Shown here piece by piece: positions 4,415 to 53,161 of a DNA stretch of 64,000 nucleotides. Each line of letters starts with the position of its first letter. The stretch's first letter is position 1. Source of the DNA: Flavobacterium fontis (GTDB lineage Bacteria > Bacteroidota > Bacteroidia > Flavobacteriales > Flavobacteriaceae); assembly GCF_900129405.1 (NCBI RefSeq), contig NZ_FQVQ01000015.1, forward strand, positions 1 through 64,000, given 5' to 3'. The translations under genes were made by a program, and so were the position numbers. The notes below the pieces were generated by a model. The model ran no database searches. It saw only the letters and a list, made by a program, of their open reading frames with translations, and was not told where the DNA came from.

Positions 4415-7042
4415 ATGATTCCAGCACAGTACAACGCCCAAGATGTCGAGCAAAAGTGGTATGCCTATTGGATGCAACACGACTTTTTTACCTCCAAACC
4501 CGATCATCGTACCCCCTATACTATAGTCATTCCTCCGCCTAATGTGACCGGAGTATTGCACATGGGGCATATGCTCAATAATACCATTCAAGACGTGTTG
4601 ATTCGTCGTGCCCGCTTGAAAGGATTTAATGCATGTTGGGTTCCCGGTACCGATCACGCTTCGATTGCTACGGAAGCTAAGGTAGTGGCAAAATTGAAAA
4701 GTGAAGGCATTCAAAAAAACGATTTAACGCGTGAAGAATTCTTGAAACACGCTTGGGATTGGACCCATAAATATGGAGGTACGATTTTGGAGCAACTCAA
4801 ACAATTGGGCTGTTCTTGCGATTGGAGTCGCACCAAGTTTACTATGGATCCCGATATGTCGGCTTCTGTAATCCGTTCTTTCGTCGACTTGTATCGCAAA
4901 GGATTAATTTATCGTGGTTATCGTATGGTCAATTGGGACCCCGAAGCCAAAACTACCCTTTCGGATGAAGAGGTAATTTATGAAGAGCGCCAAGGGAAGT
5001 TATATCATTTGCGCTATGCCATTGAAGGTTCGCAAGAATTTGTAACTATTGCCACTACACGACCTGAAACCATTTTGGGCGATACCGCAATTTGTATTCA
5101 TCCCGAAGACGAGCGATACCAACATTTGCGTGGTAAAAAAGCTATTGTTCCCATTTGTAACCGTGTGATTCCTATCATTTTTGATGCTTACGTTGATCCT
5201 GAGTTTGGAACGGGATGCTTAAAAGTAACGCCCGCTCACGATGTCAACGATAAAGAATTGGGGGAACGTCACAATTTGGAAATCATCGATATTTTCAACG
5301 AAGACGCGAGTTTGAATAGCTTCGGATTGCATTATGCGGGCAAAGACCGTTTTGAAGTACGTGAAGCGATTGCCATCGAATTGGAGGCAATCGGTGCCTT
5401 GGTGAAAACGGAAAACCATTTGAATAAAGTGGGAACGTCTGAGCGCACCAAAGCGGTAATCGAACCCCGATTATCTGATCAATGGTTTTTACGCATGGAC
5501 GAATTGGTCAAACCGGCCATTAAAGCTGTACTTGAAACCGAAGAAGTGAAGTTATACCCCTCCCGATTTAACAATACCTACCGTCATTGGTTGGAAAATA
5601 TTCGGGATTGGAATATTTCTCGTCAGTTGTGGTGGGGCCAACAAATTCCGGCCTATTACTATGGCGATGGAAAAGAAGATTTTGTGGTTGCAGAGACCAA
5701 GGAAGAAGCACTTGCTTTAGCCCAAGAAAGAACAGGAAATTCAGCCCTTACCTTTGACCAGCTTACGCAAGATGCCGATGCCCTCGATACTTGGTTTTCG
5801 TCGTGGTTATGGCCTATGGCGGTATTTGGCGGAATAATGGATCCCGAAAACAAAGATTACAAATATTACTACCCTACCAACGATTTGGTTACGGGTCCCG
5901 ATATCTTATTCTTCTGGGTGGCTCGAATGATTATTGCGGGTTACGAATACGCCGACGCCAAGCCGTTTACCAATGTGTATTTAACCGGATTGGTTCGCGA
6001 TAAGCAAGGCCGTAAAATGTCGAAATCGTTGGGGAACTCACCCGAGCCATTGGAATTGATTGAGCGCTTTGGCGCCGATGGTGTTCGCGTGGGCTTATTG
6101 CTGAGTGCCTCGGCGGGTAATGATATTTTGTTTGACGAAGAATTGTGCCAACAAGGGAAAGCGTTTGCCAACAAAATTTGGAATGCCTTCCGCTTGATCA
6201 AAGGTTGGGAAGTGGCCGCTATTCCCCAACCCGAATCCTCACGTGTTGCGATAGCATGGTATGAAGCTAAATGGCAACATACCTTAGTAGAAATCGAAGA
6301 TAATTTTGACAAATACCGTATCTCCGATGCGTTGATGGCCATTTATAAGTTGTTCTGGGATGATTTCTGTTCTTGGTTCCTTGAAATGATAAAACCGGGA
6401 TACCAACAACCAATAGATCAAGTGACTTTTGATAAAGCGATTGCGCTTTTGGAAACCAACTTGAAATTATTGCATCCGTTTATGCCGTTTTTGACAGAAG
6501 AAATTTGGCAATACATCAAAACGCGTACCCCTGAAGAGGCGCTTATCATTGCCCAATGGCCAACTTCGGTTGCTTATGATGCCTCATTGGTGGATGATTT
6601 TGAGTTTACCAAAGAGGTTATTTCTGGGATTCGTACGCTACGCAAAGACAAAAATATTCCATTCAAAGAGGGAATTGAATTGAAGGTAGTCAACAAAGAG
6701 GGGAGTACCTCCTTTTTTGACAGTATTGTTGCAAAATTGACCAATCTTTCTTCCCTTACTTATGTCAATGAAAAAGTGGACGGTGCTTTATCGTATCGCG
6801 TCAAGTCCAACGAATACTTCATTCCAGTAACCGGCGCCATCGATGTTGCCGCTGAGATTGAAAAATTGACGGCTGAGTTGGCCTATACCCAAGGTTTTTT
6901 GAAATCGGTTCAAGCCAAGTTATCCAATGAGAAATTTGTTTCGGGGGCCCCTGAAAAAGTAATTGAAATGGAGCGCAAAAAAGAAGCCGATGCCTTAGCC
7001 AAAATTGCCATGCTTGAGGCGAGTTTGACAGGTTTGAAATAA
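4415..7042 (+). CDS. valS: Valyl-tRNA synthetase
   Basis: It charges tRNA-Val with valine. From the ATG at 4415 the protein is 875 residues, normal for the family. It shows PPPNVTG then the HIGH-type motif HMGH (49-52), the editing domain ([12 protein letters not shown]), KMSKS near 533, the anticodon-binding domain and a C-terminal coiled-coil arm (residues ~810-875). The frame is open further upstream to 4340, but that part encodes the leader hairpin and looks unlike any ValRS N-terminus, so 4415 is chosen. It is monocistronic and may be controlled by its leader. Confidence 0.97.
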
Positions 7043-25566: not shown

Positions 25567-25596
25567 AAAAGCCCCCAACGTTGGAGGCTTATTTTT
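25567..25596. terminator. Bidirectional terminator after rluD
   Basis: AAGCC-C-CCAAC and GTTGG-A-GGCTT (25569-25590) form a near-perfect hairpin with A's before and T's after. It separates the convergent rluD and endonuclease genes. Confidence 0.85.
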
Positions 25597-26681
25597 TATT
25601 GGATAATTACTTTTTGCGTGATTGATTCTTTCCCAGATTCCATTTTGAAAAAATAGAAACCACTTGGAATATCTTTTATTTCCAAGGTATTGTTGGAAAA
25701 AGTGGGCTGTTCCAATTGCATAATTTCTTGCCCATTTATAGTATAAACTACGATGCGATCAAGGGTTGTATGGGTTTGCACATAAACCGAATGGGTGTTT
25801 GAAGGATTGGGAAAAATGCCGACATCGGTGGTATCAAAAGTATCTTGATTTAAGAAAATAGTGGGCCAGCGGTTTTGTGCCACAGGGCCTCCCCAAATAC
25901 GTGTCGCCAAATACGGATTATCGATAAACGGATTGCGATTCCCTTGGGCAAAGTTGTTGAACAAATTGCTCATGTAGGTGTTGCGGTTGTCTTCATATTG
26001 CGAAACGGGATCTTCAGCATTCCATTGCAACAACAAATCAATCATATTGGTATCAGATGCCACTGGATTTCCCACGGCAACCATAGAGGGCAAACATTGT
26101 GCGCCGTAGTGCAAATACATGTACATCAAAATTCGAGCGACATCCCCTTTCCATTCATCCCCAGGATACCAACTTGTAGTACCAATGGTGTAGGAAGCTG
26201 TTCCCGATCCGTTGGCGTACAAACGATTCCCACGACTCGCGTTGCGTTGTACGTCACAAGCACGGAGCATGTGTGCATCGGCACCGGGTCCCATTTGCCC
26301 CAAGTCGGGATTTCCCAACGATTGTGCATAAATGTGTTCCCGATTCCAGTCGCCATTGTTACCGCTGTTTGAATTTCGGTCACGCGTTCGGTCATTGGTT
26401 GCATCGGCGTCTTGTCCAGATTCCCAGCCGTAAACGAGCAAAACATTACTGGTGTTCGTAGGATCCAAATCAACCGCTTTAATTGCATTCCAAACTCCAG
26501 GCGTATACGAAAGTTCCACCGTATGCGTGTCAATAATTTTATTGGCTAAAGCATCTTGCAAGGCACTTCCCGTGAGCGTCCAGTTGAACCCATTGTAGTA
26601 AGGCGAGGCGGGTGCGCCATTTTGAGCGGATGCCATACCGATGGCACAGGATGCCAAAAGGGATAAAAATGTTGTTTTCAT
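25596..26681 (-). CDS. T9SS-secreted endonuclease I
   Basis: A signal peptide (1-19, MASAQ) leads into an EndoI/NucM nuclease domain (about 25-270) with DRNSNSGNNGDWNREHIYAQSLG, where the His is the catalytic base of the metal site, and DAHMLRACDVQRNASRGN. The last ~75 residues (VGIFPNPSNTHSVYVQT ... GFYFFKMESGKESITQKVIIQ) are a type A T9SS sorting domain. It is a secreted DNase/RNase, probably for nutrient release or eDNA breakdown. It lies 6 bases after the methyltransferase gene on the same strand. Confidence 0.93.
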   Translation of the reverse strand: MKTTFLSLLASCAIGMASAQNGAPASPYYNGFNWTLTGSALQDALANKIIDTHTVELSYTPGVWNAIKAVDLDPTNTSNVLLVYGWESGQDADATNDRTRDRNSNSGNNGDWNREHIYAQSLGNPDLGQMGPGADAHMLRACDVQRNASRGNRLYANGSGTASYTIGTTSWYPGDEWKGDVARILMYMYLHYGAQCLPSMVAVGNPVASDTNMIDLLLQWNAEDPVSQYEDNRNTYMSNLFNNFAQGNRNPFIDNPYLATRIWGGPVAQNRWPTIFLNQDTFDTTDVGIFPNPSNTHSVYVQTHTTLDRIVVYTINGQEIMQLEQPTFSNNTLEIKDIPSGFYFFKMESGKESITQKVIIQ

Positions 26682-30124: not shown

Positions 30125-31537
30125 TTAATTTCTTGAAAGTCGCGAGGAAGTACTCGTCTCTGAACGCATGCTACGACTCGAACCCGAACTGGAATAGTCT
30201 TGACGCGAGGGTCGAGGTGCGCTGTAGTCTTGTCGTACAGGCCGTGGACTTACACTGCTCGCACTTGGCGTATAGTCTTGACGAGAAGGTCGAGGCGTGG
30301 GTGCACTATAGTCTTGTCGTGTGGGGCGCGGACTTACACTGCTCGCGCTTGGCGATGGCGTATAGTCTTGACGTGTAGGTCGGGGGGTGCTATACTCTTG
30401 ACGTACAGGACGCGGACTAACGGTAGTTGTACTTGGTGTGTAATCTTGGCGAACGGGACGAGGCGTCGCTGTGGTGCTGTAATCAGAACGTGTGGGTCTC
30501 GGCGTTGCTGTTGTGGAAGCCAACGTGTAGTTTTCACGAATAGGACGGGGCGTTACCGAGGTGTTGCTATAATTTTCACGAACGGGACGCGGACTGGGTG
30601 CTTCGCTATAATTCGCACGTGTTGGTCTAGGATTGGTTGTTGTACCGTTTGTATAATCCTGACGCACCGGACGGGTTTCAGTAGCACTGGTCCAATTGCC
30701 CCGTACGGAGCCTGTTTCGGGTCGTGTAGCGGTTTGATTATCACGAGTACCCGCTAAAGGACTACGGGTATCGGGGTAGGCCACATTGCGAACGGTTCGG
30801 GTTCGATCCAATTCATAACGATTAGCAATTCCTTGGTTTCGGTAAGCAAATCCTCGTTGCGGATGATGCCGTTCAATAAAGTTGCCGCGTCGGCCAAAAT
30901 AGTGTGAATATCCCCAATGGCAACGACGGAAATTCACATAATTGTATTGGAATCCAAAGTTGATGCATAATCCGATGTGATGACGGTAGCGAAAAATGGG
31001 AAAAGGATGCCAAGCATAATAGTAGCTCGGATAAAAGCCCCAATACCATGAAGAACAGTAGGGCTGGTAATACGGTTGCCAGAAATAATTGTAAATTACA
31101 GGTGTTCCCACATAAACCGGTTCATAAATATAGTTGGTGCCGTAAAGGAAAGAATCGCCTACCACTTGCACTTGTACGCGTCGGTTGCGGGTATCTTTTT
31201 CAACCTCAACGGTGGCCACGTCTTGGTACTGATCGCGTCCCAGCACGGCTTGCACCACGATAATGTGTTGATTTCCTTCAATCGATTCGACTACTCGTAA
31301 ATAATCAACTTGGTTGTCAAGGTTTAAATCCAAATTGGATATCGGAGTTTCGGGATTGTTTAAACGGCGTTCAAAATCTTCCAAGTCACGAGCCTCCCCA
31401 AAAATTGAGGCAACGGCGCGAAGGTCTAAGTTGTCGCTAATCTCTGAATCGGTAGCGCTCACCGTTGTGCGATTTTGAGCCCCACTCCATGTTAGACTCA
31501 AGCCCAACAACATGCTGTATAGTAGTTTCGTTTTCAT
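30125..31537 (-). CDS. Secreted protein with aromatic-rich centre and PRPxRx(D/E/N)Y repeats
   Basis: From ATG 31537 the protein has 470 residues. It has a signal peptide (1-20), an acidic folded region (~25-140, DLRAVASIFGEARDLEDFERRLNN ... VQVQVVGDSF), a Tyr/Trp/His/Phe-rich region (~140-225, with YYQPYCSSWYWGFYPSYYY) and a C-terminal tail (~260-470) with about 12 imperfect repeats of the form PRPxRx(D/E/N)Y(S/T). Spacers are Ser/Thr/Pro-rich, 5-11 residues. I do not recognise a function; the tail is probably disordered. The N-terminal half resembles hypothetical exported proteins of flavobacteria. The alternative start at 31585 lacks a signal peptide at the N-terminus. Confidence 0.8.
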   Translation of the reverse strand: MKTKLLYSMLLGLSLTWSGAQNRTTVSATDSEISDNLDLRAVASIFGEARDLEDFERRLNNPETPISNLDLNLDNQVDYLRVVESIEGNQHIIVVQAVLGRDQYQDVATVEVEKDTRNRRVQVQVVGDSFLYGTNYIYEPVYVGTPVIYNYFWQPYYQPYCSSWYWGFYPSYYYAWHPFPIFRYRHHIGLCINFGFQYNYVNFRRCHWGYSHYFGRRGNFIERHHPQRGFAYRNQGIANRYELDRTRTVRNVAYPDTRSPLAGTRDNQTATRPETGSVRGNWTSATETRPVRQDYTNGTTTNPRPTRANYSEAPSPRPVRENYSNTSVTPRPIRENYTLASTTATPRPTRSDYSTTATPRPVRQDYTPSTTTVSPRPVRQEYSTPRPTRQDYTPSPSASSVSPRPTRQDYSAPTPRPSRQDYTPSASSVSPRPVRQDYSAPRPSRQDYSSSGSSRSMRSETSTSSRLSRN

Positions 31538-31649
31538 AACTGTGGAATTTAAAGTTCGTAATACAAAAACCAAACACTGTGCCAAAATGCCAAAATCAAA
31601 ATTGTCACCTCACCAATTATGTTTATTTTCGTAGGAAATACTGAGGATT

Positions 31650-32736: not shown

Positions 32737-33222
32737 TTAATTTCGGCGGCGTTCTTTTAATTGTTCCACCAATTTTCGATTGAAATCTTCTTCCGCACGT
32801 CGCAATTTGATAATCTTCAAAGCGGGGAGCACACCTCGTAAATCGGCAATCAATTTCTTACGGAGTTTGAATAATTCTTCCTCGTTGTTTTCCATTTGGG
32901 CCAAGACTGTTTGTGCTTCTTTTTCAGTCATTTTATCCAACTGATCGTCGTCCTTTCGGTCCATAAAAGCTTTTAATTTTTGACGGCGAATTTCAGCTTG
33001 TTTATCTTCAAAAGCATTGTATATGGGCCAAAATTTTGCCGCCTCATCCGGAGTTAAGCGAAGTTCTTGGGTAATAAAGGCTACTTTTTGTGACTTTACT
33101 TGTTCTTTTTTCTCTTGAATGCGTTCCCGTAAACGTCCACCGGGTTGCGCCCAAGCGTTCACTGTTCCCATGAAAAGGAGGGTTAGCACTGTAATTCGAA
33201 AGGCATTTTGAATTGTTTTCAT
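32737..33222 (-). CDS. Exported CpxP/Spy-like helical protein, third gene of the sigma operon
   Basis: From ATG 33222 the protein has 161 residues: a signal peptide (1-26, NAWAQ) and a long charged alpha-helical region containing the LTPDEAAKFWPIYNAFEDKQAEIR motif that marks this family. Database entries call such proteins sensor of ECF-type sigma factor. A periplasmic chaperone or stress sensor role is plausible by similarity to Spy/CpxP. The longer frame starts at TTG (33240) with no support. It follows the anti-sigma-like gene. Confidence 0.82.
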   Translation of the reverse strand: MKTIQNAFRITVLTLLFMGTVNAWAQPGGRLRERIQEKKEQVKSQKVAFITQELRLTPDEAAKFWPIYNAFEDKQAEIRRQKLKAFMDRKDDDQLDKMTEKEAQTVLAQMENNEEELFKLRKKLIADLRGVLPALKIIKLRRAEEDFNRKLVEQLKERRRN

Positions 33223-33242: not shown

Positions 33243-33659
33243 TTATTGTGTTATGCTGTATTCCAACGCTTCATTTTCAAGAAGCACTTCCTCCAGCGCC
33301 TCTGCTTCGGTATCGGAGGTAACGGGTACTTCCGTAGTTTGGAGTTCAATCAATTCCAAATAATGTTCGTCGGTGAGGTCGGTATTTTCGCTTACATACG
33401 AGGCAATAGCGCTCCAATGGGCTTCTTCTTCTTTTTGTACTTCCCAACGCCACAGCATGCCAATTCCTAAACCGATGACCAAAATAGCAGCCATTCCATA
33501 AAAAGTTTTGGCATTTTTACGCCAAAAAGAAATCGATTTTACAGGCGGCTTTTCCTCAAGTCGGTTTTGAAGTCGTGTCGAAAACGATTCAAAATAGCCT
33601 TCGGGTGCGGTAAAACCACTGGGATTCTTGGGCGGGTTATTTAAGTTAAACGGATTCAT
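33243..33659 (-). CDS. Single-pass membrane protein, probable anti-sigma factor
   Basis: The 138 residues have an N-terminal polar segment (1-48) with FTAPEGYFESFSTRLQNRL, a transmembrane helix (about 53-70, FYGMAAILVIGLGIGMLW) and an acidic C-terminal part. The position directly after an ECF sigma gene, the topology (cytoplasmic N-terminus) and the PEGYFE motif are typical of Bacteroidota anti-sigma partners. It lacks the ZAS zinc motif. Function is inferred from context. Confidence 0.8.
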   Translation of the reverse strand: MNPFNLNNPPKNPSGFTAPEGYFESFSTRLQNRLEEKPPVKSISFWRKNAKTFYGMAAILVIGLGIGMLWRWEVQKEEEAHWSAIASYVSENTDLTDEHYLELIELQTTEVPVTSDTEAEALEEVLLENEALEYSITQ

Positions 33660-33689: not shown

Positions 33690-34232
33690 TTAATTTGTTT
33701 TAATAAATTCTTCAATTTTTTTTACCGCGTGATGGTAAGAGGCTTTCAATGCCCCTACCGATGTGCCAAGTATTTCCGACATGTCTTCGTATTTTATCTC
33801 CTGAAAGTATTTCATTTTAAAAACCAATTGTTGTTTTTCGGGCAAGCGAGCAATCGCCTCTTGGAGTTGCAATTGAAATGCTTCGCCTTCAAAATATACA
33901 TCAGTTTCCAATTTAGCCAATGCTTTCTCTTGCCATTCGGAATGCGTGAATCCTTGACGTTTATTTTTTTGTTGTAAAAAAGTTAGCGACTCATTCGTTG
34001 CAATTCGGTAGATCCATGAATACAACTTGCTCTCGCCTTTGAAATCTTTTAAGTAGGTATGTACTTTGATGAAGGTGTTTTGCAACACATCGTCGGCATC
34101 ATCATGATCCAAAACAATACTTCGAATATGATAATATAGGGGTTTTTGATAGTATTGGAGAAGTTTTCCAAAAGCCGCGTCTCGGGTTTTCGGATGCAAT
34201 AGTTCTTGAATAAAAGCTTTTTCGTTTTCCAA
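33690..34232 (-). CDS. ECF-type RNA polymerase sigma factor with TTG start
   Basis: The 180-residue protein has sigma region 2 (about 25-95: DADDVLQNTFIKVHTYLKDF, LYSWIYRIATNESL) and region 4 (about 125-178: LPEKQQLVFKMKYFQEIKYEDMSEILGTSVGALKASYHHAVKKI). It directs RNA polymerase to a small regulon, probably an envelope stress response given its operon partners. The only start codon between the upstream stop at 34248-34250 and the conserved region is TTG at 34232, which would lower translation. It is followed by the anti-sigma and CpxP-like genes. Confidence 0.92.
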   Translation of the reverse strand: MENEKAFIQELLHPKTRDAAFGKLLQYYQKPLYYHIRSIVLDHDDADDVLQNTFIKVHTYLKDFKGESKLYSWIYRIATNESLTFLQQKNKRQGFTHSEWQEKALAKLETDVYFEGEAFQLQLQEAIARLPEKQQLVFKMKYFQEIKYEDMSEILGTSVGALKASYHHAVKKIEEFIKTN

Positions 34233-52980: not shown

Positions 52981-53044
52981 CAGTGTACAGTGTTCAGTGT
53001 AAAGTCGCAGTCGCAGTCGCAGTCTCAGTCGCAGTCTCAGTCGC
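52981..53044 (+). repeat. Composite short tandem repeats (CAGTGTW and AGTCKC)
   Basis: Three copies of a 7-base unit CAGTGTA/CAGTGTT (52981-53001) run into seven copies of a 6-base unit AGTCGC/AGTCTC (53003-53044). The two units share the AGT core, suggesting expansion by slippage from a common seed. No gene is present. Confidence 0.9.
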
Positions 53045-53057
53045 AGTTTTCTTATTA

Positions 53058-53120
53058 CTAGTCACTAATTACTAGTCACTAATCACTAGTCACTAATCAC
53101 TAGTCACCAATCACTAATCA
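53058..53120 (-). repeat. Heptamer tandem array, unit CTARTCA, 9 copies
   Basis: Nine adjacent heptamers CTAGTCA or CTAATCA (two with a single change) fill 53058-53120. The unit is the exact reverse complement of the TGAYTAG array at 364-447. Both arrays lie just downstream of a rightward gene. It is followed by AT-rich DNA with a likely promoter at 53162. Confidence 0.93.
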
Positions 53121-53161
53121 CTTAAATCCCAACAAAATTTTCTCAATCAAATCTGGTGTTG

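Follow-up and report, generated by a model that had tools for sequence, protein, structure and literature searches.

The 64,000-nucleotide stretch of Flavobacterium fontis DNA analysed here (contig NZ_FQVQ01000015.1, positions 1 to 64,000; hereafter the window) carries on its minus strand a 470-residue open reading frame at 30125-31537, with its ATG at 31537 and its stop codon at 30125-30127. Orthologues align from the same start region. The encoded exported protein begins with a signal peptide (residues 1-20, 31478-31537; recognised by eye), followed by a conserved N-domain (residues 30-145, 31103-31450) and an aromatic Tyr/Trp/His module (residues 146-245, 30803-31102). The remainder is a disordered, Lys-free, Arg-rich basic tail (residues 246-470, 30128-30802; pLDDT 27-35 per block), within which residues 288-448 (30194-30676) hold 12 copies of (P/T)RPxRx(D/E/N)Y. 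Upstream, a sigma-54-type box, TTGGCACAGTGTTTG, with -24/-12 spacing lies at 31571-31585 on the same strand and starts 48 bp ahead of the ATG.

An earlier note on this DNA had described a secreted protein with about 12 PRPxRx(D/E/N)Y repeats and a basic, Tyr-, Pro- and Arg-rich tail behind an aromatic middle. The repeat count holds, as do the aromatic middle at about residues 146-245 and the disordered-looking, Arg/Tyr/Pro-rich tail that follows it. The tail is basic only mildly, with a net charge of +17 over 235 residues, because the repeat unit includes D/E. Secretion is upheld as far as the Sec-type signal peptide, again by eye, is concerned, and not in respect of a T9SS sorting tail.

N-domain, family and export

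The most conserved part of the protein is an N-domain loop, NLDLNLDNQVDYLRV (residues 68-82, 31292-31336), with a calcium-loop-like DxNxDxxxDY arrangement. The written pattern NLDLNxDxxVDYLRV, in which three of the four ligand residues may be either D or N, fits 119 of 121 distinct homologues, and the two that fail it still keep D-L-N-x-D-x-x-I/V-D. In EF-hand, dockerin and DxDxDG calcium loops, the residues that coordinate the ion, at positions 1, 3, 5 and 9, are acidic or Asn. The N-domain loop has such residues at all four positions and probably binds a calcium ion. It shares with EF-hand (PF00036), dockerin (PF00404) and DxDxDG loops the D/N ligands followed by a predicted strand, but it differs from EF-hand and dockerin proteins in being a single loop with weak Pfam matches and no evident EF-hand or dockerin fold. 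Pfam yielded no convincing calcium-loop family match (EF-hand_1 in 3 of 45 members, best E 0.0035; Dockerin_1 in 4 of 45, best E 0.027). AlphaFold2 models built on 33 sequences reached a mean pLDDT of 38.7 for the N-terminal 245 residues and 35.9 for the full protein. A Foldseek search of the PDB with the 245-residue model gave no match at E <= 0.001, and sequence profiles against the PDB returned nothing credible. Given the low pLDDT and the lack of a PDB fold match, the modelled succession of two helices and four strands in the N-domain is only a hint.

No Pfam or NCBIfam model matches the protein or its family members at cut-off, and no enzymatic domain was found in the protein by these scans. 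Among the weak matches, those to Met_gamma_lyase were commonest (11 of 45 members, best E 0.0034), and a CarG-like model had the lowest E (0.00096, in 4 of 45). A literature search, largely of openly available papers and by subject rather than orthologue locus name, found no described Arg-rich exported Flavobacterium protein. The family is an orphan, found in several groups of Bacteroidota. The closest named relatives, among 32 loci, are Flavobacterium and Flavobacteriaceae MAGs at 96-99% identity over the best segment and F. stagni at 76%.

A profile of the N-terminal 245 residues, which also picks up paralogues, finds a member in 277 of 299 genus genomes (241 of 253 of good quality). Orthologue-like matches of E 1e-80 or better occur in 262 of the 277, and the other 15 are weaker and paralogue-like. 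Beyond the genus, occurrence is patchy: a single-sequence search across the family matched 12 of 199 genomes, including the source genome and one of the same genus, and the profile matched 43 of 295 genomes (21 of 155 genera) across the class and 29 of 296 genomes (11 of 139 genera) across the phylum. The source genome has a 269-residue paralogue on another contig. In L117 (5790-6308) and L118 (6072-6515), a short second copy of the N-domain without a long tail, included in the homologue set as L082 and L084, lies directly upstream of the gene, and each short copy owns a sigma-54-type box.

The T9SS sorting domain TIGR04183 (NCBIfam) is absent from the window protein. The same scan scored at 48.6 bits an exported protein with a T9SS type A sorting tail, encoded at 25596-26681. 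The window protein lacks a lipobox, and 10 of 72 Flavobacterium orthologues carry one at the end of the signal peptide, with no acidic stretch after the Cys. Such a stretch after the lipoprotein Cys is a surface-export signal. Because the T9SS tail is absent and the ten lipoboxes lack the acidic stretch, a periplasmic place seems likelier than the surface location that the earlier note had entertained.

Repeat array and tails

The copies in the window protein fit (P/T)RPxR(Q/E/A/S)(D/E/N)Y, the first starting with T, and are spaced 10-18 residues from start to start. When residues 281-455 were shuffled 5000 times, the repeat count averaged 0.015 with a maximum of 2, against 12 in the real sequence. 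Tandem Repeats Finder detects only part of the array (30194-30418, 75% matches) because the copies diverge in DNA. From residue 241 onward, the tail contains 35 Arg and no Lys.

Divergence among the copies is concentrated at synonymous sites. Compared with each other, the 12 copies give a Jukes-Cantor-type (JC-corrected) dN of 0.21 and a dS of 1.67, so that they differ chiefly at synonymous sites and are near saturation there; this pattern is unlike that of slippage products. Between species, the repeat tail gives dN 0.098 and dS 0.695 against L014 (dN/dS 0.14), dN 0.061 and dS 0.405 against L015 (dN/dS 0.15), and dN 0.338 and dS 1.551 against the more distant L018. The N-domain gives dN 0.007 against both L014 and L015, with dS of 0.380 and 0.231, respectively. 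It is far more tightly constrained than the tail, since its dN/dS is 0.02-0.03 compared with 0.14-0.15.

Repeat number is 12 in the window, 11 in L014, 12 in L015 and 11 in L018, which represent four species. A slightly wider pattern finds 11 copies in the piece of L016 beyond its stop codon and nine in G235. Within F. stagni and within G235, the copies have grown more similar to one another, each set in its own manner, with the PRPxRx(D/N)Y core intact. The earlier suggestion that repeat length is phase-variable fares poorly: copy number stays at 9-12 across species, and phase variation is unlikely because the copies are codon-diverged and under purifying selection. Near-identical units whose number varies among close relatives, as expected of a phase-variable protein, were not seen in the four species compared. 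On this between-species comparison, the array looks like an old, selected repetition rather than the product of slippage-driven phase variation. In L016, a single MAG, an in-frame TAG at 6844-6846 stands directly before the repeat tail, with frame and repeats intact beyond it; this may be a recent loss, a sequence error or something else.

Tail statistics cover 118 of the 121 homologues, three being excluded as shorter than 200 residues or running off the contig. All 118 tails have a positive net charge, and a charge-hydropathy plot places all 118 among disordered sequences. The 72 Flavobacterium tails have a mean net charge of 16.0 (sd 3.7, range 1-25) and an R/(R+K) of 0.95; the lowest charges belong to the shortest tails, including that of L016. 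The 46 other tails, from paralogues and other genera, have a mean net charge of 22.2 and an R/(R+K) of 0.55. Arginine is dispensable to the family as a whole, because tails outside Flavobacterium use much Lys. The other called open reading frames of the window have 786 Arg and 1326 Lys (R/(R+K) 0.37). Net charge is as variable as charge per residue (sd/mean 0.23 and 0.25), and neither the sequence nor the length of the Flavobacterium tails (41-264 residues) is conserved. The common property of the tails is their positive charge, with Arg nearly exclusive in Flavobacterium.

The repeat pattern occurs at least three times in only 4 of 118 homologues, and a repeat-tail query matched 7 of 398 genus genomes, one of them weakly through stop codons, although low-complexity queries of this kind may be under-detected. 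On these counts, the repeats are a trait of one small lineage and not of the family. The earlier note had held that its view would fail if relatives lacked the repeats or had a constant length with a known enzymatic domain; most relatives do lack the repeats, yet no enzymatic domain was found. Homologues in other genera (L004 and L008) bear quite different tail repeats, of KADGT type, which makes several independent origins of such repeats probable.

Upstream box and neighbouring genes

A sigma-54 box consists of TGGCAC and TGC with 5 to 7 bases between them (PMC12316311). The upstream DNA of the orthologues has a common TTGGCACAGTAATTGG, and the new observation here is a sigma-54-type box upstream of every orthologue whose upstream DNA was read. 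All Flavobacterium orthologues with upstream DNA (71 of 71; one further orthologue, L033, has none and was left out) carry TGGCA(C/T)N5TTG in the 120 bp preceding the ATG, compared with 2 of 319 control regions, taken upstream of other open reading frames of at least 120 residues in L014-L045. The fixed letters of the box are invariant by construction of the pattern. The first three bases of the spacer, which the pattern leaves free, are biased to A (68/71), G (58/71) and T (61/71). Random 200-bp windows from all loci, which include the true sites, contain the box in 98 of 6800 cases. Among homologues with upstream DNA, 74 of 119 have a box within 200 bp, namely the 71 orthologues, the two short copies (L082 and L084) and L134, the only one of the 46 remaining homologues to have it. 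The box is therefore a trait of the genus orthologues.

In the orthologues, the box lies 47-82 bp before the ATG. Its -12 element reads TTGG in 60, TTGA in 8, TTGT in 2 and the canonical TTGC in 1 of the 71. The source genome has 23 instances of TTGGCACN5TTG, most of them inside open frames, compared with 6 of the reversed pattern; the canonical TGGCAYN5TTGCW is not enriched, with 2 sites against 10 for the reversed control. Besides that of the window gene, five of the box sites in this genome (L148, L149, L156, L163 and L169) precede starts that resemble those of exported proteins or lipoproteins, one of them with DTTAA repeats; two (L166 and L167) lie outside long frames with no exported-type protein downstream. 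Both observations were made by eye. The genome encodes RpoN, together with two strong and four weaker activator matches. It has both -24/-12 boxes at fixed spacing near the gene and RpoN with an enhancer-binding activator. The box is probably a working sigma-54 promoter.

In F. psychrophilum, groES is among the genes with sigma-54 (SM4) promoters, and the SM4 regulon comprises chaperones, envelope-stress genes, gliding genes and exported proteins of unassigned function (PMC9723704). Of the 62 groES matches in the genus, 30 loci were read, and 29 of these have TGGCA(C/T)A(A/G)TTTCTG between -50 and -66; the pattern applied, TGG(C/T)AN6(T/C)TG, is wider than that used for the window gene. A similar wide pattern occurs in 2 of 313 control regions. 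The groES -12 element is CTGA in 28 of the 29; the strict TTG pattern finds none of the 30, and the thirtieth locus, L201, has TTGGCAC with a different spacing. The window gene resembles groES of the genus in the type of -24/-12 box and has it at a similar distance from the ATG, its promoter being predicted from sequence.

Three minus-strand neighbours, counted by BLAST, encode an ECF sigma factor (33690-34232; in 24 of 32 loci), a small presumed anti-sigma factor (33243-33659; 25 of 32) and a Spy-like protein (32737-33222; 25 of 32). A BNR protein is nearby in 26 of 32 loci. These counts are over 32 loci, some of which end at contig edges. The Spy-like label comes from weak LTXXQ matches in 6 of 12 members (best E 0.0012), under the Pfam cut-off. 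The sequence AAACCTTT, a possible regulatory box, precedes the sigma gene in all 24 loci with that gene, and frequently the anti-sigma gene as well. It also occurs in 33 of 333 other upstream regions; by position, 9 of these belong to the sigma frame under an alternative start, 18 to the anti-sigma gene and 6 lie elsewhere. Upstream of the window gene's orthologues, it was found in 0 of 31 regions, and upstream of paralogues in 1 of 9. Co-regulation with the adjoining ECF sigma operon was rejected because AAACCTTT is missing upstream of the gene. A second ECF operon beside L002, also considered, was not borne out by the neighbour sequences.

Possible roles of the protein

The reading favoured here, held at somewhat less than even confidence, is that the protein serves in envelope stress under sigma-54 control and that its disordered, polycationic tail attaches to anionic components of the envelope. 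It would be made upon protein or envelope damage from a groES-type sigma-54 promoter, such expression being proposed because the conserved promoter resembles that of groES. The acidic loop of the N-domain would bind one calcium ion, and the N-domain and aromatic module might anchor or dock the protein in the periplasm or on the inner side of the outer membrane. The extended tail would act as a polycation whose composition matters and whose sequence does not. Through many weak contacts, of Arg to phosphate or carboxylate and of Arg to Tyr, it might bind and hold together anionic envelope material, for example lipid A phosphates, peptidoglycan or damaged client proteins. PRPxRx(D/E/N)Y would be one small lineage's spelling of such a tail. 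The mode of action would be like that of other envelope-stress proteins. By description, the protein would be like RcsF of E. coli, an envelope protein tied to envelope damage. RcsF has a disordered basic stretch, and its promoter type differs from that of the window gene. The roughly regular placement of Arg and Tyr in a Lys-free disordered region also recalls eukaryotic Arg/Tyr sticker-and-spacer proteins, though the window protein is an exported bacterial one, known here from its composition. A stress-induced, calcium-responsive periplasmic scaffold that assembles into an Arg-Tyr condensate or gel, with a tail under a charge-and-sticker rule rather than a sequence rule, is a speculative and rather improbable form of envelope protein for this locus.

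Other readings divide over whether the tail does any work. It might be low-complexity sequence that is tolerated without a job, the N-domain and aromatic module doing the work; variation in tail sequence and length (41-264 residues) within Flavobacterium, the stop ahead of the tail in L016 and, in two genomes, an adjacent short copy that lacks the long tail are all consistent with this. However, the charge is positive in all 118 tails, Arg is near-exclusive although other frames of the window favour Lys, tail dN/dS is 0.14-0.15, and the 12 copies hold their amino acids while their codons scatter, which leaves a tolerated tail unlikely. A quite different job, release of proline-rich peptides of the insect antimicrobial type from a multi-peptide precursor, draws on the resemblance of PRPxR to insect proline-rich antimicrobial peptides. 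Most of the repeats contain acidic residues, no processing sites are evident by eye and most relatives have no repeats, so a peptide precursor has next to no probability.

Two further proposals also place the protein in the envelope, and each is distinctly unlikely. One, close to the earlier note, which had suggested cross-linking or mineral/polysaccharide-binding behaviour, is an adhesin at the cell surface or a cross-linker of the matrix, with polysaccharide or mineral as binding partner. This agrees with the export signal, the Tyr/Arg/Pro-rich repeats and the aromatic module, and with gliding genes sharing the F. psychrophilum sigma-54 regulon (PMC9723704). Surface display is at odds with the missing T9SS sorting tail, in a scan that scored the 25596-26681 protein at 48.6 bits, and with ten lipobox orthologues that have no acidic stretch after the Cys. 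Alternatively, an RcsF-like envelope sensor or outer-membrane-to-peptidoglycan tether would signal or anchor through its folded domain and read LPS or cell wall through its basic tail. Its disordered basic tail, the lipobox in 10 of 72 orthologues and the neighbouring genes for an ECF sigma factor (24 of 32 loci), a presumed anti-sigma factor (25 of 32) and a Spy-like protein (25 of 32) would suit such a sensor or tether. Yet AAACCTTT occurs in 0 of 31 regions at the gene and is lacking upstream of 8 of 9 paralogues, leaving co-regulation by the sigma factor unsupported, and the Spy-like label is under the Pfam cut-off.

A family member is present in 277 of 299 sampled genomes of a common environmental genus, yet the family has no Pfam or NCBIfam model. 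Its putative promoter groups the gene with heat-shock chaperones and offers an entry to the role of sigma-54 in the Bacteroidota envelope. The tail would be a natural case for studying how a disordered stretch retains its charge and Arg content under selection as its sequence drifts. Elsewhere in the window, short-period tandem arrays lie at 360-447, 739-772 and 53003-53122, with 7-base units (TTAGTGA/ACTAATC and AATTCAT) and a 6-base unit.
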